Assembly: GCA_016744065.1 (NCBI GenBank)
Contig: JADGFA010000007.1
Span: 1-64,000 of the forward strand
DNA length: 64,000 nucleotides
Direction of reading: 5' to 3'
DNA from: Gammaproteobacteria bacterium
GTDB taxonomy: Bacteria > Pseudomonadota > Gammaproteobacteria > SZUA-229
The notes under the pieces are model-generated. The model saw only the letters and a program-made list of their open reading frames with translations. It was not told where the DNA came from and searched no databases. Positions 28,081 to 40,147 of the stretch are shown here, piece after piece. Numbering within the stretch: the first letter of the stretch is position 1; every line of letters begins with the position of its first letter. The position numbers were made by a program, and so were the translations under genes.

Positions 28081-28241
28081 TAATACCTTACCTATAGTCT
28101 TTAATTAGCTACTTGATTCTGTGAGCCCAGAATAATAATCTGTTCAGTACTCTTTTATCAGAGTAAACTACCCCTCATTGAGCAGATCTGTTTGCCTGTA
28201 AACTTCAGACTGAAAAAAACAACCTACAATAGCATAATTTA

Positions 28242-29156
28242 ATGTTTTCCAGTTATATAACCGCCCCACTCAGCAAATCAACGCTTTTCACTTTGCTTTT
28301 ATTTTTTATCACAGCAAATAGTTATGCGAAACCCACCGAGGTTCTGGTAAGCATAAAGCCTCTACACTCTCTTATTAGTAATATTACAGACGGAGTTAAT
28401 CAAACTCGATTATTATTAACTCAACAGCAATCACCCCATCATTTTCAATTATTACCCTCCCAGAAGCGCTTAATAAACAAAGCCGATATTTTTTTTTATA
28501 GCAGCGATAATATTGAAACTTTTGTACCTGCTTTAAAAAACACGACCAATCACTTACAGTTTGTTCAGTTTACTCATATCCCGAAAATAAACACCCTGGG
28601 CACTCGCAGCTTCCACTCACATACTAAACATAATTCAATTGATATAGATGGGCATATCTGGCTTTCCATTGATAATGCAAGAATAATAAGTCAATACGTA
28701 ACAGACATACTCAGTAAAAAATCACCTGAACACGCCATTCAATACAATAAAAACCTAGATACTTTATTGTTAAAACTGGATAAACTTAAACAGGAAAACC
28801 AGTTTAAACTGAAGAAATTTAAACATATCCCCTATCTAGTTTACCATGATGCTTATCAATATTTTGAAGTTGAAAACAAATTAACCGGTGCACGGTTTAT
28901 TACAACTGACCCAGAAAATCATCCAGGCATTAAACGAATTAGAAATTTAAAAACATTAATTAATACTGAAAACATTCAATGTATTTTTTATGAACCACCT
29001 GATATACCTTCACTACTGAATGTAATTACTGAAAACAGATCCGTTAAACTATCTGCTCTTGATCCAGCAGGATTGCAGATACCCATGGGTAAACAACACT
29101 ATTTTCAGCTATTACGGCAAACTGCCACTACACTTAGTTATTGTCTTAGCCAATAA
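28242..29156 (+). CDS. znuA: Zinc ABC transporter substrate-binding protein
   Basis: A 304-residue periplasmic cluster A-I binding protein with an N-terminal signal peptide ending near ANSYA (residue ~29). Likely zinc ligands are in SPHHFQLLPS (~64-73), DIDGHIWLSI (~133-142), PYLVYHDAYQYF and the acidic site IFYEPPD. The His/Asp-rich loop of E. coli ZnuA is reduced to a short SFHSHTKHNS. It captures Zn(II) for ZnuBC, encoded divergently upstream. The gene order fits the standard znuA / znuCB layout. It is less conserved than the other two subunits but complete. Confidence 0.9.
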   Translation: MFSSYITAPLSKSTLFTLLLFFITANSYAKPTEVLVSIKPLHSLISNITDGVNQTRLLLTQQQSPHHFQLLPSQKRLINKADIFFYSSDNIETFVPALKNTTNHLQFVQFTHIPKINTLGTRSFHSHTKHNSIDIDGHIWLSIDNARIISQYVTDILSKKSPEHAIQYNKNLDTLLLKLDKLKQENQFKLKKFKHIPYLVYHDAYQYFEVENKLTGARFITTDPENHPGIKRIRNLKTLINTENIQCIFYEPPDIPSLLNVITENRSVKLSALDPAGLQIPMGKQHYFQLLRQTATTLSYCLSQ

Positions 29157-29166
29157 GGATTTTAAA

Positions 29167-29484
29167 ATGCAGCAACGTGAAATAAGAGCTCTGGTCAATA
29201 ACAGCTCTGTTCAACTAGCAAGAAGCTCAGGTATACCAACACAAAAAGAATATAAAGTTCTCAACATAAGCCGAGGAGGTTTGTGCTTTGAAAGTGAAAC
29301 TGAAGATTTTTTACTAAATGAAGTCATTAAAATCAACCTCATTATAGATAAACACTCTATTCACAAAGCAAATGGCCGAGTTTGTTATTGCAATAACTGC
29401 AGTGAAAAAAATGCAGCCGCATACGGTTTAAGTTTTTTAGATAAATTTATTGATACAGATATTCTTCGTGGAAATATCAGCTAA
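29167..29484 (+). CDS. PilZ-domain-like protein
   Basis: A 105-residue protein starting at the ATG at 29167 (MQQREIRALV), with TAAGGA upstream. A longer frame that begins inside znuA is not needed. The segment YKVLNISRGGLCFESET (residues ~36-52) matches the D/N-x-S-x-x-G-x-x-F/V strand of PilZ domains that bind cyclic di-GMP, followed by a beta-rich stretch and KNAAAYGLSFLDKF. The upstream R-x-x-x-R switch is only partly represented (QREIR), so binding of the nucleotide is uncertain. A terminator follows at 29532-29563. Confidence 0.65.
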   Translation: MQQREIRALVNNSSVQLARSSGIPTQKEYKVLNISRGGLCFESETEDFLLNEVIKINLIIDKHSIHKANGRVCYCNNCSEKNAAAYGLSFLDKFIDTDILRGNIS

Positions 29485-29531
29485 GCATTATATCCTGTCG
29501 ATTATTCAAAAAAACAAATAACCCAATACAT

Positions 29532-29563
29532 AAAAAAGCCTGCTCAATAAGCAGGCTTTTTAT
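29532..29563. terminator. Intrinsic terminator after the PilZ-like gene
   Basis: An 11-bp perfect stem (AAAAGCCTGCT / AGCAGGCTTTT) with a five-base loop, flanked by A- and T-runs. It lies 48 bases beyond the stop codon at 29484. Confidence 0.9.
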
Positions 29564-29566
29564 TAG

Positions 29567-29813
29567 AATAAAAATAGCGGGACCAGTCCTTGTCCCTATG
29601 CATCAGCGTGGTTGCATTACTAAACTATATAAACAGTTTCAGTTAAACTTCCAGTCTAACTGTAATCAGACTTTATGCCTGACAAAATAAAAAAAACGAT
29701 GCTAGTCTGTGCATCTATCAGCATGTTTTCTGACATGCTGTTGTCAGGCTTTTATGTCTGACAGAATAAAAAGAGCGATGCTAGTCCATGCATCTAAGCA
29801 TCAGCGTGGTTGC
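29567..29813. repeat. Cluster of degenerate direct repeats with a hairpin
   Basis: Two 45-base units at 29672-29716 and 29751-29795 agree at 39 of 45 positions (both contain CGATGCTAGTC and TGCATCT). A third related unit starts at 29567. It shares the exact 16-mer GCATCAGCGTGGTTGC with the end of the last unit (29600-29615 and 29798-29813). Between the 45-base units is a hairpin, CAGCATGT / ACATGCTG (29719-29740). No credible protein frame covers the area. It looks like a non-coding, possibly REP- or MITE-derived, repeat cluster. Confidence 0.7.
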
Positions 29814-30249
29814 TTTATAAATCTTAAATTCAATTCCGGTTGCAGCTCGGTAACTTTTACAAGGTCTCAATCTTTTAGATATCACCTTATTCCTAAGATA
29901 CATGCAGGGGCCATGCCAAAAATAAAATAAATATATTTTTCAATAACTTATATAAAAAACATTAACTTTAAAACACTCCGCATATTGCATCATGCAACGT
30001 TTTTGCAGATTGCATACTGCATCTTGCAATCCATTTTTAATTAACTCACAATATAATAATTAACAAATATAGCATCGTTGAGTAAAGCTTTATTCAAAAG
30101 AATAACGATTAAATTATTAAATAACACCTGTATCAAATAACTACCAAATCAATGAAAGCGGACTGAGCCTAAACTAAACTCATCCCTACCTGTTTAAAAC
30201 AAAAAGCACATTTATCTGCAAATAAATTAAAAATACACAATGACAGAAT
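29814..30249. other. Non-coding stretch left of the groEL-linked element
   Basis: AT-rich, with no credible gene. Around 29978-30033 there is an alternation of ATTGCAT and TGCAA(T) motifs, for example GCATATTGCATCATGCAAC followed by ATTGCATACTGCATCTTGC. These make several overlapping small inverted repeats. No promoter or RNA family was recognised. If the element at 30450-38052 is a late insertion, this stretch was originally close downstream of groEL. Confidence 0.5.
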
Positions 30250-30286
30250 AAAAAAAAACCTGACTAACTAGAGTCAGGTTTTTTTA
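30250..30286. terminator. Intrinsic terminator, probably the original groEL terminator
   Basis: A 9-bp stem (AACCTGACT / AGTCAGGTT, 30257-30265 and 30272-30280) with A-run and T-run flanks, working on both strands. No minus-strand gene ends just beside it now: the nearest is the 129-residue gene of the element, 219 bases away. It lies 140 bases from the left copy of the groEL 3' end, so it plausibly terminated groESL before the insertion. Confidence 0.8.
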
Positions 30287-30425
30287 ATAAAGCAATGCAG
30301 TAACACATTAACCATTATTCAGATTACCCTATCAATATCTCAGATTAAGACGAGAAATGTAAACCTGCCATTGTAGATAAACACTTCCCAACAAAAGACT
30401 TGATGGGTTAAAAACTAAACAATGA

Positions 30426-30449
30426 TTACATCATGCCACCCATACCGCC
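30426..30449. repeat. Left attachment repeat (copy of groEL 3' end)
   Basis: A 24-base sequence identical to 38029-38052 except at one position. On the minus strand it reads as codons for G-G-M-G-G-M-M followed by TAA, that is, the GroEL C-terminal tail and stop. In-frame codons just upstream do not continue into GroEL and a stop appears a few codons earlier. It is therefore an isolated tail fragment, as expected for the distal att site of an integrated element. Confidence 0.8.
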
Positions 30450-30493
30450 GTAACCAAATGATTTGTATCGTTATTTTTTATTAGACTGATGAT

Positions 30494-30507
30494 GATACCC
30501 CTCATTA
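30494..30507. promoter_or_regulatory. Left arm-type motif of the element
   Basis: The 14-mer GATACCCCTCATTA lies 45 bases inside the left attachment repeat. The identical 14-mer lies at 37889-37902 near the right end in the same orientation. Paired short motifs inside both ends are typical of arm-type integrase binding sites. It overlaps the last bases of the 129-residue gene. Confidence 0.55.
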
Positions 30508-30894
30508 TACCCCATTTTCACTAGCCATTTCGAAAAACAATATTATGGCAAAAATAGCAACAACCAAAGAATACAACAACAAAATAGCACCATGCACAGG
30601 TATTAACAAAAAAGCATCAACCGAGAACACCAATAAACACAAAAAAGCAACAATCATTAGCATCGTGCCTAAATACGTATTTGCAATCCAGTTTTCTAAT
30701 TTTTTGCTTTTATATCCTACCTTCTTAAATAACCATGCGAGGATAACAAACATTGATATTCCTATAGTTGTTTGAACTCCCTGTTTCCAGTCGACCTCTG
30801 GAAACAAAGAATCAAGAAAATCATGCGGTATTAACGCAAATAAAATTAATACGACAAATAGAATCATTAAGAAATATACGTATTGCTTACACAT
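30505..30894 (-). CDS. Small multispanning membrane protein of the element
   Basis: A 129-residue, strongly hydrophobic protein with about four predicted membrane helices: residues ~5-22 (YFLMILFVVLILFALIP), ~42-60 (GISMFVILAWLF), ~75-95 (LGTMLMIVAFLCLLVFSV) and ~98-122 (LIPVHGAILLLYSLVVAIFA). No family recognised. It follows the 57-residue gene by three bases (TAAGGAATG), so they are translated together. It is the last gene before the left attachment repeat, a position where satellites and prophages often carry accessory genes such as exclusion or defence functions. No function is assigned. Confidence 0.7.
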   Translation of the reverse strand: MCKQYVYFLMILFVVLILFALIPHDFLDSLFPEVDWKQGVQTTIGISMFVILAWLFKKVGYKSKKLENWIANTYLGTMLMIVAFLCLLVFSVDAFLLIPVHGAILLLYSLVVAIFAIILFFEMASENGV

Positions 30895-30897
30895 TCC

Positions 30898-31071
30898 TTA
30901 TTTATTAGATGTGTCATTCTTAGATGATGATTCGAATGTTACAGTGATGGTCGACCCCTTTGGCAAATCAAATAACGGGTCCAAATGACTATTCCCGACA
31001 TCCTTTAATTTATCCTTTTTTAATTTTTTAAGCTTATTAGGAACCGAGTGCGAATTTGAGCATTGAGTCAT
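30898..31071 (-). CDS. Hypothetical 57-residue protein
   Basis: A short gene starting at the ATG at 31071, with a strong AGGAG ribosome-binding site eight bases upstream. The product is basic in its first half (PNKLKKLKKDKLKD) and ends in FDLPKGSTITVTFE plus a polar Ser/Lys/Asn tail. No signal peptide or membrane helix. Its stop codon is part of the ribosome-binding site of the membrane-protein gene that follows (TAAGGAATG), which supports both being real. No family recognised. Confidence 0.65.
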   Translation of the reverse strand: MTQCSNSHSVPNKLKKLKKDKLKDVGNSHLDPLFDLPKGSTITVTFESSSKNDTSNK

Positions 31072-31159
31072 AGCTATATCTCCTAGATTATCCTGTAAAA
31101 GAATTACTCCATAGATAATATAACAAATTATTCATTGCGTTCAAATCCATTTGAAACCA

Positions 31160-31831
31160 CTATTCACCAGAGGGATGGCCAGTTTTCCAACGCTCCAACA
31201 ATAATTTTAATTTTTCCTCCGGGCTAGGGCCAATCTCATGCACGACTTCAGAATCGTACTCAGTAGACTCAGCCTGTTGCTCAATACTTGACGGTGTAGC
31301 CGATGGCTTAGGTTCCAGAAAGCTCACCAATTGCTCATCCTGTGATTCTTCCTCATCATTGAGAGCGTCATCATCACTATCAATTGATAATTGAGCCTTA
31401 TTCATACGCAGTCGCCCCCTCCGCAACCTTTCCAGCACTTCATTATCAGATCGAGTATCAAGGGGCTTATCGAAGGCTTTAATATCTACGTGCTTACCGA
31501 CAAGGGTTAATGCCTTGATTGCACTATTAGCATCAAATTTAAATTCACCGGTGGCATTACCATCACGATCCAGGACTTTCTCTGCTTGCATGCACCGGTG
31601 ATAAACCTTAACCGCTTCACCTAGCACCCAGTCAGCGCCGACCCGTAACCGTTCAGCTCTGATTTTCAGTTGTTCATTAATGGCTACCTTCACAACGGCA
31701 TTATTGAATATTGAAGTTGTTTCATATCCTGCATCTTTTGCAGCCTGACTCTTGTTCATCGATTTGAGATATAAACTCACCGCGAGTTGTTGCTGTGGCT
31801 GTAAGTCGTATTTTTCTAATTCCATTGTCAT
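31160..31831 (-). CDS. Terminase small subunit-like protein
   Basis: A 223-residue protein. The N-terminal region PQQQLAVSLYLKSMNKSQAAKDAGY (residues ~12-36) is the helix-turn-helix start of phage terminase small subunits, with the N-x-S/T-x-A-A-x-x-A-G-Y pattern. The next ~75 residues (GADWVLGEAVKVYHRCMQAE and FDANSAIKALTLVGKHVDI) match the family's core. The C-terminal ~90 residues are acidic, low complexity, and probably variable. Terminase small subunits choose the DNA to be packaged. No large terminase is present, so in a satellite it would redirect a helper phage's packaging machine. It lies downstream of the iteron region. The family call is by pattern and not by search. Confidence 0.7.
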   Translation of the reverse strand: MTMELEKYDLQPQQQLAVSLYLKSMNKSQAAKDAGYETTSIFNNAVVKVAINEQLKIRAERLRVGADWVLGEAVKVYHRCMQAEKVLDRDGNATGEFKFDANSAIKALTLVGKHVDIKAFDKPLDTRSDNEVLERLRRGRLRMNKAQLSIDSDDDALNDEEESQDEQLVSFLEPKPSATPSSIEQQAESTEYDSEVVHEIGPSPEEKLKLLLERWKTGHPSGE

Positions 31832-31856
31832 TTCTCACATGTTGCTGAAAATGTCA

Positions 31857-32110
31857 TTCAGTTATGCCAGTTCAGGAGTGGTAAAACTGAATTTCACCGG
31901 TGTAGCTCCCCCCCCTGGATAGTGGTATTACTGGTATATATATAATAACTGGTAACACTGGTAAAACTGGGTAACTCAGCCCCCATAGGGTTCTCACGGT
32001 GGCTTTATGTCCAATGTGATTCTGAGCGACATGTTGCAAATTCAGTTATGCCAGTTTTACCACTATCCAGGGGGGGGGGGGTAAATATAGATAATTTACT
32101 GGTAAAACTG
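31857..32110. other. Iteron and inverted-repeat region, candidate replication origin
   Basis: The decamer GGTAAAACTG or close variants occurs at 31880, 31924, 31951, 31960 and 32101 on the plus strand and at 32052 inverted. A 27-bp inverted repeat with 25 matches (31908-31934 and 32051-32077) contains a C-run and G-run plus TGGATAGTGGTA. A 16-base direct repeat TTCAGTTATGCCAGTT is at 31857 and 32041. The centre includes the AT-rich TATATATAATAA. The position just after the primase-helicase gene is where SaPI-type satellites keep their origin. A transcriptional control region for the terminase-like gene is the alternative. Confidence 0.6.
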
Positions 32111-32116
32111 AATCGT

Positions 32117-34138
32117 TCATAGAAAACTCACCGGTGCAATTGGCACTTCATTAAGCTTGTAAACAGATTTATTGTGCAACCCTTTTTCTACGTTCCACAG
32201 TCGACCTTCATACTCTTCAAGCACACGTTTAATTGTTCTGCGAGAATCACGGTAGGAACCCATAACAAATTTTTCTATTTCATATTTCGATGTCGCACTA
32301 TTAACGATTGCAGTTCTAACGTGTTCAATTACATCAGCGTCATTAGATTCTTGCTCAGCAGATTCAGCAACAGCCAAAGTCGAATCAACAACATCTTTAG
32401 AAACAACTTTTACCGAGTCAAATAATTCCTGGTAACTACCGCCTCTCGTGTATTGGAAAGCTTTAGTTTGAGCTACGTTGCCTCTTGCCTTCTTATTTTC
32501 AAACTGAACGGTTCTGGTCAGGCCATTAAACCCTTTGCTTTCGTTCAGCAGCTCAACGACATAAACACAGTCGCTATCGTCTTTAAGATCGCTGGTACCC
32601 GCATGAATTGACTTACCATCAAGACCTTTATTCTTGTTAACGTGAGCAAGTGCAATGATGGAGCCACCGGAAGATACAAAAGAGCGAGCTGTCTTTCCAA
32701 ACTGGCTAGATAATTTCTTGTCCATCAGGTCAGTCACAGCTTTAACCGTATCAATCAGCATCACCTTACCTTTAGCCTGGTCCTGCTCAGCAAGTGCTGT
32801 CATCATGCTGGGTAAAGCGTCTACCTTGAATTTATTAACGTTTGGAATAAGCATATTAAAACCATGCTTCTCTGCCAGCTCTAACTTTTCAACAGCCCCT
32901 TTATAATTATCATCCGCATTAATATAATAGATGTCACTACCGCAAATCTCATCGGCTTTAATTGCTTCAGTGAGCAGCCACAAACTAAGCAACGTTTTAC
33001 CACTGGATGGGGCCGCATATATTACCGAAAACTGTCCTTCAATAATTAAATCTTGCATTATGTAACGATCATTTAACATTTGTTTTTTCATTTCATGACT
33101 GCTCCCATTAGCACACAAAGACCTCAACATATTTGAAGGCGAGTCAGTAGTTAGTATTGTCTTCACCGGGTGAGGATCCTGTAATGATGTTACAGCAGTA
33201 AACTCCCTCATGACCTGCCATTGCTTCAACCTGTCATTAAAGCCCGGTGACCGGCTTTCAATCACGCGAAGTAAATCACCCCCGGTTTTTTCCTGGCAGT
33301 TACCGTGATGACATTTAAATCCGATAGAGCCATCTTCATTTGTAAATATAGCGCTACCACTATCGTCCTGTGATGTGTGCGACCCAACCCACGGGCATGT
33401 AATGTCAAAACGTCCATCGGATCTAACCTCTTTAATATTTATAACCTCAGGTATGTTTATTAAAGGGTGATCAGATACAGCAGCAGCACCGTTAATACGT
33501 TTATCCGCTCGTAGGGCATCTAAGTCCACACCGAAGGGTTCTGCCAGTTGTTCAAGTGTGTAGCGATGCTCTGGATGCCATTCAGTCACTTCGCAACGTG
33601 GAGCTATACCATTGTTCTCACTGACCCGTTTATTTTTTGTGTTGATGGATTCAGGTAGCCTCAGATAACGGGTTACTGACTTCTGACCAGGGTCCTTGCT
33701 GTCAGGTGCTAAGCCGTTTTTAATCAAGCCATCATGCAAGTTATCAATACGATTAATATCGGTGCAGGGTGTTTCTAGCAAGTACAGCCATTGCTCACTG
33801 TAGAGGGATGACTTAAGAACAATGCTTGGTAACGGCAACCGTTTAACTTGTTCGATTGGTAACTTTTCCTTTACGTCATCGAGGCCGATGACGTAACAGG
33901 CCGAGAAGTTTGCTTTACGTCTTCGAGATCGACCGGTTTCATCCGGTGAGAACAAAGACACTGTATAAAACTGATTGGAGTTTGGTGTTAAAAGGGTGTC
34001 TTTGTATGCACCTCCAGCCCAGCAACGTCCCGATTCACCAGAGGGGATATTACCGGGGTCTTGCATAAAGCTAGTTACATACGCATAAATGTAACTTTCA
34101 CCGAAAATGCTTTTTAGAAATTCATCATTAGTAATCAT
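32117..34138 (-). CDS. RepB/RepA-type primase-helicase
   Basis: A 673-residue replication protein. The N-terminal ~220 residues resemble plasmid/satellite RepB-type primases, with the segment VTRYLRLPESINTKNKR near 155-171. Next comes a zinc-binding stretch (CPWVGSH near 247 and KCHHGNC near 273-279), then a RecA-fold helicase with Walker A APSSGKT (~375-381), Walker B VMLIDTV (~456) and IIALAHVNKNKG. The C-terminal ~80 residues may be a winged helix. This architecture starts replication of satellites and plasmids. The gene is followed directly by the candidate origin, so a self-contained replicon is likely. Divisions into domains are approximate. Confidence 0.8.
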   Translation of the reverse strand: MITNDEFLKSIFGESYIYAYVTSFMQDPGNIPSGESGRCWAGGAYKDTLLTPNSNQFYTVSLFSPDETGRSRRRKANFSACYVIGLDDVKEKLPIEQVKRLPLPSIVLKSSLYSEQWLYLLETPCTDINRIDNLHDGLIKNGLAPDSKDPGQKSVTRYLRLPESINTKNKRVSENNGIAPRCEVTEWHPEHRYTLEQLAEPFGVDLDALRADKRINGAAAVSDHPLINIPEVINIKEVRSDGRFDITCPWVGSHTSQDDSGSAIFTNEDGSIGFKCHHGNCQEKTGGDLLRVIESRSPGFNDRLKQWQVMREFTAVTSLQDPHPVKTILTTDSPSNMLRSLCANGSSHEMKKQMLNDRYIMQDLIIEGQFSVIYAAPSSGKTLLSLWLLTEAIKADEICGSDIYYINADDNYKGAVEKLELAEKHGFNMLIPNVNKFKVDALPSMMTALAEQDQAKGKVMLIDTVKAVTDLMDKKLSSQFGKTARSFVSSGGSIIALAHVNKNKGLDGKSIHAGTSDLKDDSDCVYVVELLNESKGFNGLTRTVQFENKKARGNVAQTKAFQYTRGGSYQELFDSVKVVSKDVVDSTLAVAESAEQESNDADVIEHVRTAIVNSATSKYEIEKFVMGSYRDSRRTIKRVLEEYEGRLWNVEKGLHNKSVYKLNEVPIAPVSFL

Positions 34139-34152
34139 TTTTCAAATTCTTT

Positions 34153-34725
34153 TTAGTAATTACTTTCTACAAAGTTGATTGCTTTATCAGTATCAGTCAA
34201 TAAATCAAAATCTTTCCACTGAATAGCTTCACCCGGAGAGAGCCCCATAGCCTTAGCACCAAAAGAGCTAACCAAAGCACTTTTTAAACGTTTTAATTGT
34301 GATCGAGCTGAAAGCGGATAAAGATTAAACCCAGAGCCAATGACTGCTTGTAACTGTTCAACTTCAGTGGAAATAGTCATTATGTTATCAAACTCTTGAC
34401 TTAGCACTTTTAGAGCTTGCATTGATGCTGCAAATTTTTTCATCTCATCATTTATAATTTTAATTTTTTTATCTCGTTCAACTATCGCAGCATCAATACG
34501 AATTTTTTTATCTGCTTCTCTATTTTTAGCTCGAAGCTTTATAATGCCGCTGACTCTTCTCCTTTCTGCTTTAATAAAGCTGAGATCGTCCTCAGCTTTC
34601 ACCTGATCTTCCAAGCTACCGCCCATATTCCTCAGTGAGCAAGCTTCCTTATCTAATTTCCTTAAGTACATTGAAATTTCAGCTTCATTATTCAACGGTG
34701 TATCTAAATTGTTTTGAGTATTCAT
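34153..34725 (-). CDS. Coiled-coil protein of unknown function
   Basis: A 190-residue soluble protein. Residues ~20-100 are strongly charged and helical (KAERRRVSGIIKLRAKNREA and AIVERDKKIKIINDEMKKFA), consistent with a coiled coil. The C-terminal half has SARSQLKRLKSALVSS. No family recognised. It overlaps the previous gene by one base (TAATG) and is followed after 14 bases by the primase-helicase gene, so it belongs to the early replication operon of the element. A role as an accessory replication or DNA-binding factor is only a guess. Confidence 0.7.
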   Translation of the reverse strand: MNTQNNLDTPLNNEAEISMYLRKLDKEACSLRNMGGSLEDQVKAEDDLSFIKAERRRVSGIIKLRAKNREADKKIRIDAAIVERDKKIKIINDEMKKFAASMQALKVLSQEFDNIMTISTEVEQLQAVIGSGFNLYPLSARSQLKRLKSALVSSFGAKAMGLSPGEAIQWKDFDLLTDTDKAINFVESNY

Positions 34726-35339
34726 TATTTGATACCTTGTTTTAAATTATTCAGTTTCTGTAAACGGACTTCTGATCGAGGCAACTGGCTAATTTTCATT
34801 ATTTGATTGATAACGTGGGGGTTATTTCCCGCCTGTGTTTCATCAAGCCATGCAGACAAGTCAGGATAACTTGCTACAAGCTGCTGGGCGGCATGTAACT
34901 TCTGATTAAGCTCTTTCCCATGCTGCTCATACAGCTCACTCATTACGGTGTCAGGTGCATATTCAGCATTTGTTAATATATGCTCATTGCAAGTTTCAAC
35001 CAGGCTTTCCACATCAGCTTGACTGGCTCCAGATGAACTAGCGATATGGCCCAGATTTTTACGTAAAGTATTTTGCTCTTCAGGATCAGAGTAAATTATG
35101 GATAAGTCCGTTTCTGAACTCAACTCTACACATTCATTTTCACCGTATAATTCGTTTTCAATGCTGTCTCTATCTTCCGGTAAAACATACGGGTTACCCT
35201 GGATAGATTCATCAGATTCAGGGTATAAATCTTTAATCTCTTCTTCTGATGCAGATATATTTAGTTCATCAATCGGCAGGGTACTAGATTGCGTGGAAGA
35301 CTCACCATACAAAATATCAATGGTATTTTTATCGTTCAT
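34725..35339 (-). CDS. Acidic hypothetical protein
   Basis: A 204-residue protein, strongly acidic over its first ~100 residues (SASEEEIKDLYPESDESIQG and ENELYGENECVELSSETD). A helical second half follows (YEQHGKELNQKLHAAQQLVA). No family recognised. It overlaps the 120-residue gene by four bases (ATGA) and the coiled-coil gene by one base, so the three are translated as a chain. The low-complexity acidic region could mimic nucleic acid, but there is no evidence of function. Confidence 0.65.
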   Translation of the reverse strand: MNDKNTIDILYGESSTQSSTLPIDELNISASEEEIKDLYPESDESIQGNPYVLPEDRDSIENELYGENECVELSSETDLSIIYSDPEEQNTLRKNLGHIASSSGASQADVESLVETCNEHILTNAEYAPDTVMSELYEQHGKELNQKLHAAQQLVASYPDLSAWLDETQAGNNPHVINQIMKISQLPRSEVRLQKLNNLKQGIK

Positions 35340-35698
35340 GAATCATCTCCACAGGTAGATATTACTTCAACTTTTTCACCATTTGGCAAATCTTCTACAG
35401 GCACATTACCCAGTGGTGTTATAGCATCCTGTGGGAATAATAGAAGATGAAAAAAAGACTCCAACGCATCGGGGATAGGAGAGACATGGAAACCTTTATT
35501 GGCTAACAGATTTAACAGTACGAACTTTCTATGTGGCGAGACGCTGAACGATAATAGTTCAGCGTAAACATCAATACTGAGGGTTTCTTTTTCGTTGGTG
35601 ACTCTGTTTGTAATACGGAAAGTTATGATTCCGATATTTTGCTTTTCAGTTTTTAGAATCGTAAAGGGATCACAAATATTTTGCTTATTGATGATCAT
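35336..35698 (-). CDS. Hypothetical 120-residue protein
   Basis: A 120-residue soluble protein with a mixed alpha/beta pattern: GIITFRITNRVTNEKETLSI and AELLSFSVSPHRKFVLLNLL. It overlaps the AlpA-like gene by four bases (ATGA) and the acidic protein by four bases. No family recognised. The start codon ATG lies within the AlpA-like stop region, so translation should be coupled to the regulator's. Confidence 0.65.
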   Translation of the reverse strand: MIINKQNICDPFTILKTEKQNIGIITFRITNRVTNEKETLSIDVYAELLSFSVSPHRKFVLLNLLANKGFHVSPIPDALESFFHLLLFPQDAITPLGNVPVEDLPNGEKVEVISTCGDDS

Positions 35699-35883
35699 AC
35701 GGCAACTCCTTCACCGGCCATCTTTTCAATAGCTGTTTCAATATCCGCTGATCTCCAAACGGATGTCCTGGGGGTTAAATGGAGCGGTTGGGGGAGAATG
35801 CCTTCACTGACCCAACGCCAGATAGTTGATTGGGATACACCGATTGATGCTGCGACCTGCTTTACTCGCAAATAATTATTCAT
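35695..35883 (-). CDS. AlpA-like helix-turn-helix regulator
   Basis: A 62-residue protein with an N-terminal MerR/excisionase-like winged helix: YLRVKQVAASIGVSQSTIWR followed by WVSEGILPQPLHL. This is the AlpA/phage excisionase pattern (L-x-x-x-x-V-A-x-x-x-G-x-S-x-x-x-I-x-R-W). In P4-like elements and PICIs, AlpA activates integrase or the replication operon. It is first in the run alpA-120aa-acidic-coiled coil-primase, all overlapping. The 103 bases upstream hold a plausible promoter, and GAGGTGAG is the ribosome-binding site. Confidence 0.82.
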   Translation of the reverse strand: MNNYLRVKQVAASIGVSQSTIWRWVSEGILPQPLHLTPRTSVWRSADIETAIEKMAGEGVAV

Positions 35884-35986
35884 ATACTCACCTCATATAG
35901 TATCAAGACCTGGTATAGGCCTTTCTGAGACTGAGAATATAATATATTTCAAATCTTATATTTTTGAACGTACAGGAACTACAATT
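35884..35986 (-). promoter_or_regulatory. Likely promoter region of the element's replication operon
   Basis: A gap of 103 bases ahead of the AlpA-like gene, the only substantial gap between the integrase end and the primase. On the minus strand it contains TTGAAAT and an AT-rich TATATTATATTCTC. There is also an inverted-repeat-like CCTATACCAGG just ahead of the gene. A specific -35/-10 pair cannot be chosen with certainty. Confidence 0.4.
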
Positions 35987-36577
35987 TCAAGAATTAATTT
36001 TAAGCTTACCCCCCTTCGTTAATTTTCTCTTATAGTCATACACCGCTTTTTCAATATCAAAGGGGATATTAACATCATATATTGGATCTATTATAAGCAT
36101 AACAAAGTCGACTAAATGATCGGCATCCACATTGTACTTAGTAAACAGCTCAAAGGACTCCTTAATAATTTCATTACTTAACAGGCCTCTTTTCTTTGGC
36201 AAAGGCTTATAGCTTTTCAGTTTCTCATCCATCAACATAAAGACATCCAACCCAATCACTTTTTTTGTATCATACGACATACGACCTAGAGCAGCTTTTA
36301 GTGCTTTTACCTCTCTGTTCATTTCAGAGGGTTTCATAACGGTATGATTATCAATATAATCCACCAACTCAACTACTCGATTAAATACTACGCAAGCATC
36401 ATGTACAAAACCATTCGAATCACAAATACCCCTAAATTGACTTATAGTTTCCTCACTCTCATGTAATTTGATAGCCCTTTCTTCAGACTCCTTCGTTAGA
36501 CGCTCACCATTTTCTTTTTCTTCTTGGCATTCTTTTTTTATAAGTTTCCATTCTTCTGATTCAGAGTAACTACACAT
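35987..36577 (-). CDS. Hypothetical charged helical protein
   Basis: A 196-residue soluble protein. The first ~50 residues are highly charged and helical (KLIKKECQEEKENGERLTKE). A compact helical part follows, including ACVVFNRVVELVDYIDNH and KESFELFTKYNVDADHLVDF. No family recognised. Its start codon lies 8 bases inside the end of the integrase gene, implying translational coupling, and it ends before the AlpA-like promoter gap. A regulator or accessory factor of integration is possible but unsupported. Confidence 0.65.
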   Translation of the reverse strand: MCSYSESEEWKLIKKECQEEKENGERLTKESEERAIKLHESEETISQFRGICDSNGFVHDACVVFNRVVELVDYIDNHTVMKPSEMNREVKALKAALGRMSYDTKKVIGLDVFMLMDEKLKSYKPLPKKRGLLSNEIIKESFELFTKYNVDADHLVDFVMLIIDPIYDVNIPFDIEKAVYDYKRKLTKGGKLKINS

Positions 36578-37802
36578 GCTTACGCCCTCCTATTGGTACA
36601 ACATCGGCACCATCACGTAATGCATCAAGGTAGTCTGCCCACGACTGCATCATCTTGGTTCGCTCTGCTAAGTGAATTGATCTGTTATACGCTCTTGATG
36701 TTGCTGTCCCGGTGAGGTGAGCCAGTTGCGCCTCTATCACATCAGGTGCCCAGCCTTGCTCATGCAAAATAGTAGATGCCGTAGCCCTAAACCCATGAGC
36801 CGACATCACATCGCCGGTGTAACCCAGAGTGCGTAATAAATTAGTCATCACATTTTTTGAGAGAGGCTTTCCAGAGTCGCGCTCATTAGGAAATACATAC
36901 GGTGAGTAACCTGTAATTTCTTTAACTGCTTCCAGGTGTGTAACAACCTGATCAGACAATGGCACCAGATGTTCACGCCCACGCTTCATATCTTCAGCAG
37001 GAATGATTAGCAGCTTTTGTTCAAAGTCGATGTATTTCCACCGTAGAGTTCTGATTTCACCGGGTCTCAGAAATAGTCTTGGAATGAGCTTCAGTGCTTC
37101 AACTGTGCAGTAACTACCTGAGTCTGATTTATCAATGTCACGGATCAACTGACCTAATGCTGTTGGCCGGGTAATGGCTGCACGGTGCTCAACCTTCGGC
37201 ATGGGTTTAAGAATGTCACGAAGAGGTAAACCTTGAGCAGGATTATTACGCGTTAACCGGTGAGCCAGTGCATAACCAAAGATACGATTAATCACCGAGA
37301 GGATAACGGGTGCTTTACGGGGGTGCCCTGCTGCCTCGATAGACAACATCACTTCTGTAATATGCCCTTGATCAATAGCATCCACTGGCAATTTACTAAG
37401 AGGTGTTAACTCAACTTCAATCCAACGCTTTACCTTTTTAGCATGATCAGATGACCACGATGACTTTTGTTGCTCCCACCACAACAAGGCAATCACACTA
37501 AAGGCTCGATCAGAAGCATTGGTTACTTTTTTTCTGGTACGTCTTTCAGCGGCAGGATTGATACCCTGAACCAGTAACGCACGAGCTTGATCAGCCAAGT
37601 TTCGAGCTTCAATGAGGGGTATCGTGGGGTACTGACCAAACGCCAGCTCTTGATACTTTCCACTGTACCTGTACCGCATACGCCAAAGCTTGGAACCATT
37701 GTTTTTTATTAATAAAAACAATCCATTACCATCACTTTTCTTGATTTGCTTTTGACCTTCTGGACAGGTCAGCCGCTTAACTTCCATTGCTGTTAACGCC
37801 AT
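36570..37802 (-). CDS. int: P4-type tyrosine integrase
   Basis: A 410-residue integrase. The N-terminal DUF4102 arm-binding domain (about 1-90) has KKSDGNGLFLLIKNNGSKLW and QYPTIPLIEAR. It continues into a core-binding SAM-like domain and a catalytic domain with the tyrosine-recombinase residues: Arg in LRPGEIRTLRW (~242), HGFR (~332), and the terminal Tyr in SRAYNRS (~371). It starts 226 bases from the 3' end of groEL and points away from it. That position, plus the groEL-tail repeat, suggests it recognises that site. The ribosome-binding site GAGGTAATG is good. Confidence 0.93.
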   Translation of the reverse strand: MALTAMEVKRLTCPEGQKQIKKSDGNGLFLLIKNNGSKLWRMRYRYSGKYQELAFGQYPTIPLIEARNLADQARALLVQGINPAAERRTRKKVTNASDRAFSVIALLWWEQQKSSWSSDHAKKVKRWIEVELTPLSKLPVDAIDQGHITEVMLSIEAAGHPRKAPVILSVINRIFGYALAHRLTRNNPAQGLPLRDILKPMPKVEHRAAITRPTALGQLIRDIDKSDSGSYCTVEALKLIPRLFLRPGEIRTLRWKYIDFEQKLLIIPAEDMKRGREHLVPLSDQVVTHLEAVKEITGYSPYVFPNERDSGKPLSKNVMTNLLRTLGYTGDVMSAHGFRATASTILHEQGWAPDVIEAQLAHLTGTATSRAYNRSIHLAERTKMMQSWADYLDALRDGADVVPIGGRKHV

Positions 37803-37818
37803 AACATTACCTCACTTA

Positions 37819-37902
37819 AGGGTATCAAGAGGGGTATCGTTAGAAGTTCTGGGCTAAAAATGCCCTTTTTCAGGCATACAATTTAACCGATACCCCTCAT
37901 TA
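37819..37902. promoter_or_regulatory. Right arm-type sites and inverted repeat upstream of int
   Basis: GGGTATC occurs twice close together (37820-37826 and 37832-37838), the second within a perfect 11-bp inverted repeat GAGGGGTATCG / CGATACCCCTC (37829-37839 and 37888-37898). The right arm continues as GATACCCCTCATTA, the 14-mer also found at the left end. The likely roles are integrase arm sites and autoregulation of int. A short GGGC-AAAAA-GCCC hairpin with a T-run on the plus strand lies between the arms, but no plus-strand gene precedes it. Confidence 0.6.
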
Positions 37903-37962
37903 AACCCTGAATAACCTGCTATTTGATGAGACATTATAAGACTATTTGAGAGGCATAAGCAA

Positions 37963-37996
37963 TAAAAAAGCCCGTAAACACTGGGCTTACGAGCTT
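37963..37996 (-). terminator. Intrinsic terminator after groEL, inside the element
   Basis: On the minus strand AAGCTCGTAA pairs with TTACGGGCTT (one G-U wobble), loop GCCCAGTGT, followed by a T-run. It lies 33 bases past the groEL stop and within the element, so the element supplies groEL with a new terminator. Confidence 0.85.
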
Positions 37997-38028
37997 TCTT
38001 GAGACTTACTAAGAGTAGGTCAGTAACT

Positions 38029-39687
<1,659 letters not shown>

Positions 39688-39807
39688 TTATTCTTTAATT
39701 TGATTTTGATTTATTGCTTTAAGAACTATCAATGATTATTCATTGCAGGTTAAACCTGTATTAGCTCTAGCAACTTAATCTGTGTACTAAACAATTACGG
39801 TTAAAGG

Positions 39808-40098
39808 TTATCCTTCAAACACACCTAGAATATCTTCTTCACGCATTATCAACATTTCATTACCATTGATCTTAATTTCAGTACCTGCGTATTTGCCAAA
39901 TAAGACCAGATCTCCGGCTTTTACGTCTAATGGACGCACATCACCGTTACTGGTTACCTTGCCATTACCAACTGCTAACACTTCACCACGTGATGGTTTT
40001 TCAGTTGCAGAGTCAGGAATTAAAATACCACCAGCACTGGTCGTTTCTTCTGCCATTCGTTTTACGACCACGCGGTCCTGTAATGGGCGAATATTCAT
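39808..40098 (-). CDS. groES: Co-chaperonin GroES
   Basis: A 96-residue GroES of standard length. It begins [18 protein letters not shown]. The mobile loop that docks to GroEL is [19 protein letters not shown] (residues ~18-36). [18 protein letters not shown] is the conserved beta-barrel core. It caps the GroEL cage. It is the first gene of the groESL operon, 22 bases downstream of the CIRCE operator. Confidence 0.98.
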
Positions 40099-40120
40099 TA
40101 GATTGTATCCTCGTTAATTT

Positions 40121-40147
40121 TTAGCACTCAAGCTTAGTGAGTGCTAA
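40121..40147 (-). promoter_or_regulatory. CIRCE operator (HrcA-binding site)
   Basis: A perfect CIRCE element: TTAGCACTC, nine-base spacer AAGCTTAGT, then GAGTGCTAA. It lies between the promoter and the groES start, overlapping the transcription start. CIRCE is bound by the heat-shock repressor HrcA, so groESL here should be under HrcA repression. Confidence 0.97.

Follow-up and report, generated by a model that had tools for sequence, protein, structure and literature searches.

The 7,603 bp lying between two groEL tails at 30426-38052 of the window (the whole stretch of 64,000 nucleotides that was analysed) very probably make up a small mobile element, a PICI-like phage-satellite island, which uses the 3' end of groEL as its attachment site. 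At the level of sequence, this was shown by an empty site, two att copies, a putative attP in a circular related element, the clade-wide use of groEL and a conserved terminator. The features are listed in Table 1.

Table 1. Features of the island and of the groESL operon in the window.
Feature	Position	Strand	Basis
Displaced native groESL terminator	30252..30285	-	Terminator scan; aligned downstream of groEL in G004
Far att site, spare tail GGMGGMM-stop	30426..30449	-	Repeat, genome search, G004 alignment
Candidate arm-type site GAGGGGTATC	30494..30503	-	10-mer recurrence
129-aa hydrophobic (membrane) protein	30505..30894	-	No family above cut-off
Terminase small subunit, 223 aa	31160..31831	-	Pfam Terminase_2 5.1e-9, phrog_51 2.6e-16
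Primase/AAA helicase, 673 aa	32117..34138	-	phrog_4861 DNA primase 2.6e-9, phrog_6357 1.1e-13
190-aa ORF without assigned function	34153..34725	-	ORF list, Pfam, PHROGs
204-aa helical protein	34725..35339	-	Conserved in circle L161, 41% identity
120-aa ORF without assigned function	35336..35698	-	ORF list
AlpA-type regulator/excisionase, 62 aa	35695..35883	-	Pfam Phage_AlpA 36.4 bits (cut-off 21); phrog_66 excisionase and regulator
196-aa protein overlapping integrase stop	35987..36577	-	Similar-sized ORF after int in several related islands
Tyrosine integrase, 410 aa, groEL-targeting clade	36570..37802	-	Pfam Phage_integrase + Arm-DNA-bind_3; tree
Candidate arm-type site GAGGGGTATC	37829..37838	+	10-mer recurrence
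Candidate arm-type site GAGGGGTATC	37889..37898	-	10-mer recurrence
Element-borne terminator closing groESL operon	37964..38000	-	Terminator scan; 7 elements
groEL-side att site, working groEL end	38029..38052	-	ORF list, repeat, genome search
groEL, 546 aa, integration target, intact	38029..39669	-	ORF list
groES, 96 aa, first gene of target operon	39808..40098	-	ORF list

The far tail read TTACATCATGCCACCCATACCGCC, which on the minus strand gives GGC GGT ATG GGT GGC ATG ATG TAA, and no groEL sequence was found upstream of these codons. It joins the element, which reaches up to the core, to the chromosome beyond the stop codon. The groEL-side copy, TTACATCATGCCACCCATTCCGCC, was the true 3' end of groEL. 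The two 24-nt tails differed once (A at 30444, T at 38047; synonymous GGT/GGA), and their identity broke off exactly at 24 bases on both sides. The initial annotation had read the left repeat as the codons of the GroEL C-terminal Gly-Gly-Met tail plus TAA, the right copy as the real groEL end and the only mismatch as synonymous, all of which was confirmed from the letters. By degenerate search of the genome (3,884,029 bases), groEL-type tails were detected in these 2 places only, the reversed control genome gave 0 matches, and 100 shuffled versions of the window contained no chance match to a similar 24-mer query. A second groEL-tail match in another genome (G017, C39:6344-6424) was set aside, as the groEL there was cut by the contig end and no island was present.

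The empty site was revealed by island-free congeners. Window positions 28195-30029 and 30250-30449 aligned directly downstream of groEL in G004, a genome of the same genus, while 38035-40146 aligned with its groEL and groES and overlapped the downstream alignment at the tail. The joined sequence TAATCATTGTTTAG...AACCCATCA aligned with TAGTCATTGATCAG...CCTCATCA in G004, and G003 agreed, which supported the proposed att repeat at the groEL 3' end. As the initial annotation had anticipated for relatives, groEL in G004 ran straight into the terminator corresponding to 30250-30286, and the displaced terminator of the window lined up with that of G004. A location of 30250-30426 far from groEL in island-free relatives, which would have spoken against the proposal, was not found, because 30250-30425 was adjacent to groEL in both G004 and G003. 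The congener groEL ended in TAG and both copies in the window's genome in TAA; for this strain, the ancestral form of attB was accordingly inferred. As a separate observation, a noncoding motif of about 57 nt was present in two copies on the plus strand of the window (29566-29620 and 29764-29821), consisting of AATAAAAAnAGCG, a 5-bp hairpin and TAnGCATCAGCGTGGTTGC. Other genera of the family carry it as well (L071-L078), typically 200-550 bp downstream of groEL; the hairpin was formed in 13 of 13 copies with 17 double-sided changes, nothing in Rfam matched at threshold, and the motif appears to be a structured element, RNA or DNA, of an undescribed type.

A free circular form was represented by L161 (IMGVR_UViG_3300007276_008771), the sole viral contig returned by a scan with an alignment of two integrases. 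The contig was 7,436 bp long with identical 103-nt ends and was therefore read as a circle of 7,333 bp. Its integrase was 79% and its TerS 66% identical to those of the window. L161 also encoded the 204-aa protein, a pair of AlpA/excisionase-like proteins and the primase, whose gene is interrupted by the arbitrary ends of the contig. L161 carried a single tail, GGTATGGGCGGCATGATGTAA, at 2009, without groEL upstream and with the same terminator after it, so that it looks like an excised form carrying attP. The tail was flanked on both sides by the 19-mer GGGTATCATGAGGGGTATC, whose core GAGGGGTATC also occurred near both ends of the island in the window, and these repeats are probably integrase arm sites. 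L161 is a related element from a metagenome, from another genome than that of the window, and its terminal repeat could instead reflect a concatemer.

Two other origins of the tail pair were weighed against integration. Second or partial groEL copies are known in relatives, and the left tail might thus be what is left of a former groEL duplication or of a deleted second groEL, with no att role. This reading was highly improbable: the tail identity ended abruptly at 24 nt, the flanks of the empty site were contiguous in G004 and G003, and the tail was also carried by circle L161 without groEL; the empty site and the circle have already refuted it. A resemblance by chance or low complexity, for which the repetitive nature of GGM codons could speak, was given practically no weight and is likewise already refuted, since only 2 places were found in 3.88 Mb with none in the control, the position and orientation of the tail fit an integrase-bearing island, and the same tail pairs recurred in five other genomes.

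To locate the crossover under site-specific integration, both tails were compared in six events. The common part was TGGGNGGNATGATGTAA, the terminal 17 nt, which comprises the last five codons plus the stop, minus the first base. Upstream, the far copy diverged right at this block or no more than a few bases from it, and exchange at an earlier GGM repeat was found in none of the six events. Slippage or alternative crossovers among the GGM repeats, as suggested in the initial annotation, were therefore rejected; the mapping called for there placed all events within the last 17 nt, with no finer placement inside the block. In each event the two tails agreed even at synonymous positions that varied from one event to the next, a pattern predicted by an integrase requirement for identity at these positions. 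The occupied hosts all had TAA, compared to 19 of 30 relatives, a stop-codon bias that is suggestive with too few events. The earlier claim that integration rebuilds the codons and stop also held, as the groEL side retained a complete GGMGGMM-stop.

The use of groEL extended to a clade of integrases. Among 80 integrase loci from a scan of species genomes, those at least 53% identical to that of the window all lay no more than about 240 bp from a groEL 3' end (5 of 5): L081 in Neomelitea salexigens, L082 in UBA5078, L083 in Mariprofundus erugo, L084 (= L063) in the MAG MC-02 and L085 in Zetaproteobacterium CG1_02_55_237. These five further groEL islands belonged to Gamma- and Zetaproteobacteria. 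Of the other integrase loci, 46 sat just after a tRNA gene, and relatives at 40% identity were mostly beside tRNA genes. In the maximum-likelihood tree, the groEL-targeting integrases (n=7) formed one side of one branch with support 100, and groEL targeting required 1 change versus 6.8 in shuffles. A second tail, with 17 nt or more in common with the tail at groEL, was detected in 5 of 5 related host genomes; it was on the same contig at a distance of 6.9 kb in CG1_02_55_237 and 17.3 kb in M. erugo, and on another contig in the other hosts.

Several neighbouring arrangements were recorded alongside. The far tail of UBA5078 (L167) was followed by element-type sequence and another hairpin, which suggests that its groEL may hold a tandem pair of elements. 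The deltaproteobacterial loci L117, L123, L143, L144 and L150 were counted as tRNA targets and rejected as groEL targets because a tRNA-Met lay between groEL and int. In Desulfobulbaceae and relatives, the tRNA-Met just downstream of groEL bears islands with related integrases, and the order groEL - tRNA-Met - int could have led from tRNA to groEL as the target.

In the window, the native groESL terminator lay 7.6 kb away from groEL, and another one closed the operon. A hairpin with a T run followed the stop codon in 7 of 7 elements, the free circle included. Its 11-bp stem was formed in every sequence (100% of cells paired) with three pairs changed on both sides, and the covariation exceeded that of all 500 shuffles and all slid controls. 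The terminator was assigned to the element because it was present in the free circle and common to hosts of two classes. In M. erugo, MC-02, CG1_02_55_237 and Neomelitea, the sequence that follows the far tail formed a strong hairpin of its own, presumably the displaced host terminator. Integration therefore swaps the groESL terminator along with the tail, a replacement that the initial annotation, with its proposal of no cost to the host, had not recognised. The element terminator would end groESL transcription and shield the co-directional int. It is improbable that the terminator acts as a gate through which strong groESL transcription in heat shock or phage attack leaks into int and causes excision; if true, the satellite would sense stress or infection via its target gene. 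A scan returned no sigma-70-like promoter between the terminator and int, which is weak evidence for such a gate.

The listed island genes all lay on the minus strand and comprised a tyrosine integrase adjoining the groEL-side att, AlpA, a primase/helicase and a terminase small subunit. Homologues of the latter were found in L161, L082 and L081. The primase/AAA helicase, identical to 56% over its full length in L082 and to 53-63% in L161, is a probable replication protein. The 204-aa protein had weak matches to the T7 capsid-assembly family and a phage protease family, its structure model was of low confidence and too weak for structure search, and it could be a capsid-interference protein. 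Neither capsid, phage structural, large-terminase nor lysis genes were recognised among the eight larger ORFs by Pfam and PHROGs, with four ORFs unassigned. The features of Gram-negative PICIs present here were a specific attachment site with the integrase at one end, an AlpA regulator above the Phage_AlpA cut-off and the packaging gene terS. Of a replication module, the primase/AAA protein was seen, and a circular form was seen for the related element L161, another copy than that of the window.

The same site-specific island could also be a non-satellite, that is, a small integrative element moved by natural transformation, conjugative mobilisation or general transduction, and this was considered unlikely. 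No helper phage was identified, no TerS relative that might hint at a resident helper was found elsewhere in the genome, and terS and primase alone do not prove packaging. Against this, int, AlpA, primase and terS without recognisable capsid, tail or lysis genes are the set of Gram-negative PICIs (PMC6092414), Pfam and PHROGs recognised neither a relaxase nor a conjugation gene in 30426-38052, and a related element was a 7.3-kb circle in a viral contig collection. Under the satellite reading, integration would leave on the groEL side a complete GGMGGMM-stop end followed by the element-supplied terminator, and would shift the second tail and the host groESL terminator to the far end. Excision, probably aided by the AlpA-like protein, would give back a circular molecule bearing one groEL tail; this could replicate via the primase/helicase and may be packaged by a helper phage through the element's own small terminase. 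The recombination chemistry, arm-site role, replication, helper dependence and packaging in this scheme are all inferred.

The groEL 3' end is already known as a PICI site from staphylococci, in which the islands SeCISE48, SePI/SeRIfusB and ScRIfusB occupy it (PMC8125051, PMC4651549). Experiments in Staphylococcus epidermidis demonstrated its use: in SeCISE48, att overlaps groEL by the gene's last 18 bp, and groEL was unaltered after experimental transfer (PMC8125051). Both the staphylococcal PICIs and the island in the window are small satellite islands with an integrase at the groEL 3' end. However, the former are of a Gram-positive lineage, whereas the integrase in the window is of the Arm-DNA-bind_3 type, accompanied by AlpA and with relatives at tRNA genes; integrase family and gene content point to a separate lineage. 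The Gram-negative PICIs EcCICFT073 and PmCI172 carry int, an AlpA-type activator, a primase-replication gene and sometimes terS, and have a circular excised form (PMC6092414). Their gene set is like that of the present island, which differs in its att at groEL and is known here from sequence. In Enterobacterales, fis PICIs integrate at the very end of a protein-coding gene with an identity block ending in the stop codon (PMC10111431). Their block TACGGCATGAACTAA, adjacent terminator and occasional tandem occupancy are like those of the groEL islands, although the fis and hpt PICIs target genes other than groEL. P4-like satellites and tRNA-targeting islands share the integrase family (Arm-DNA-bind_3, Phage_int_M, Phage_integrase), AlpA and primase, a likeness at family level, but target tRNA instead of a protein gene. 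As a rule, integrases at tRNA and protein genes have an attP that supplies a substitute for the target gene's end (PMC10111431). No report of proteobacterial groEL islands was found in open-licence papers, and the proteobacterial lineage, its clade of integrases, its circular free form and the conserved terminator that it brings in are apparently undescribed.

The groEL end is a recurrent, not a universal, integration target. The initial annotation had called the site universal, which was too strong, since the perfect TAA-ending tail GGNATGGGNGGNATGATGTAA was found in 181 of 369 sampled gammaproteobacterial genomes, the congeners have TAG and E. coli is mostly unoccupied. The E. coli groEL ends in the exact core, and the groEL-yjeI junction was intact in 5,367 of 5,375 genomes with a match. 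A tail scan of viral contigs also returned contigs in which another type of integrase, encoded on the opposite strand, lay some 100 bp past the groEL tail, both with groEL (L189, L208, L225, L231) and without it (L198, L200, L201, L206, L209, L249). The L189 integrase was 55% identical to those of Paenibacillus phages and about 20% (marginal) to that of the window. Contigs of this type are probably Bacillota prophages, which, with their very distant integrase, seem to use the groEL end separately. The integrase of Paenibacillus larvae phage HB10c2 shared 55% identity with its counterpart in a Bacillota groEL prophage, and this phage was rejected as a user of the site, with no groEL tail near int.

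Genes beside two of the related islands were also recorded. The UBA5078 island was followed by a 1573-aa DUF4011 helicase-nuclease (L082:15638-20359) with a whole-length match to the PADLOC candidate PDC-S37, and part of a type IIG restriction-modification protein (L063:12648-13535) lay beside the MC-02 groEL integrase at the contig end. Because some islands lie with such defence genes, groEL is a place to seek defence cargo. The conserved Gly-Gly-Met tail of an essential chaperonin is an integration target for a proteobacterial satellite lineage across two classes, besides the staphylococcal PICIs. The element repairs the coding end and replaces the operon terminator, a clean example of an island occupying an essential operon.
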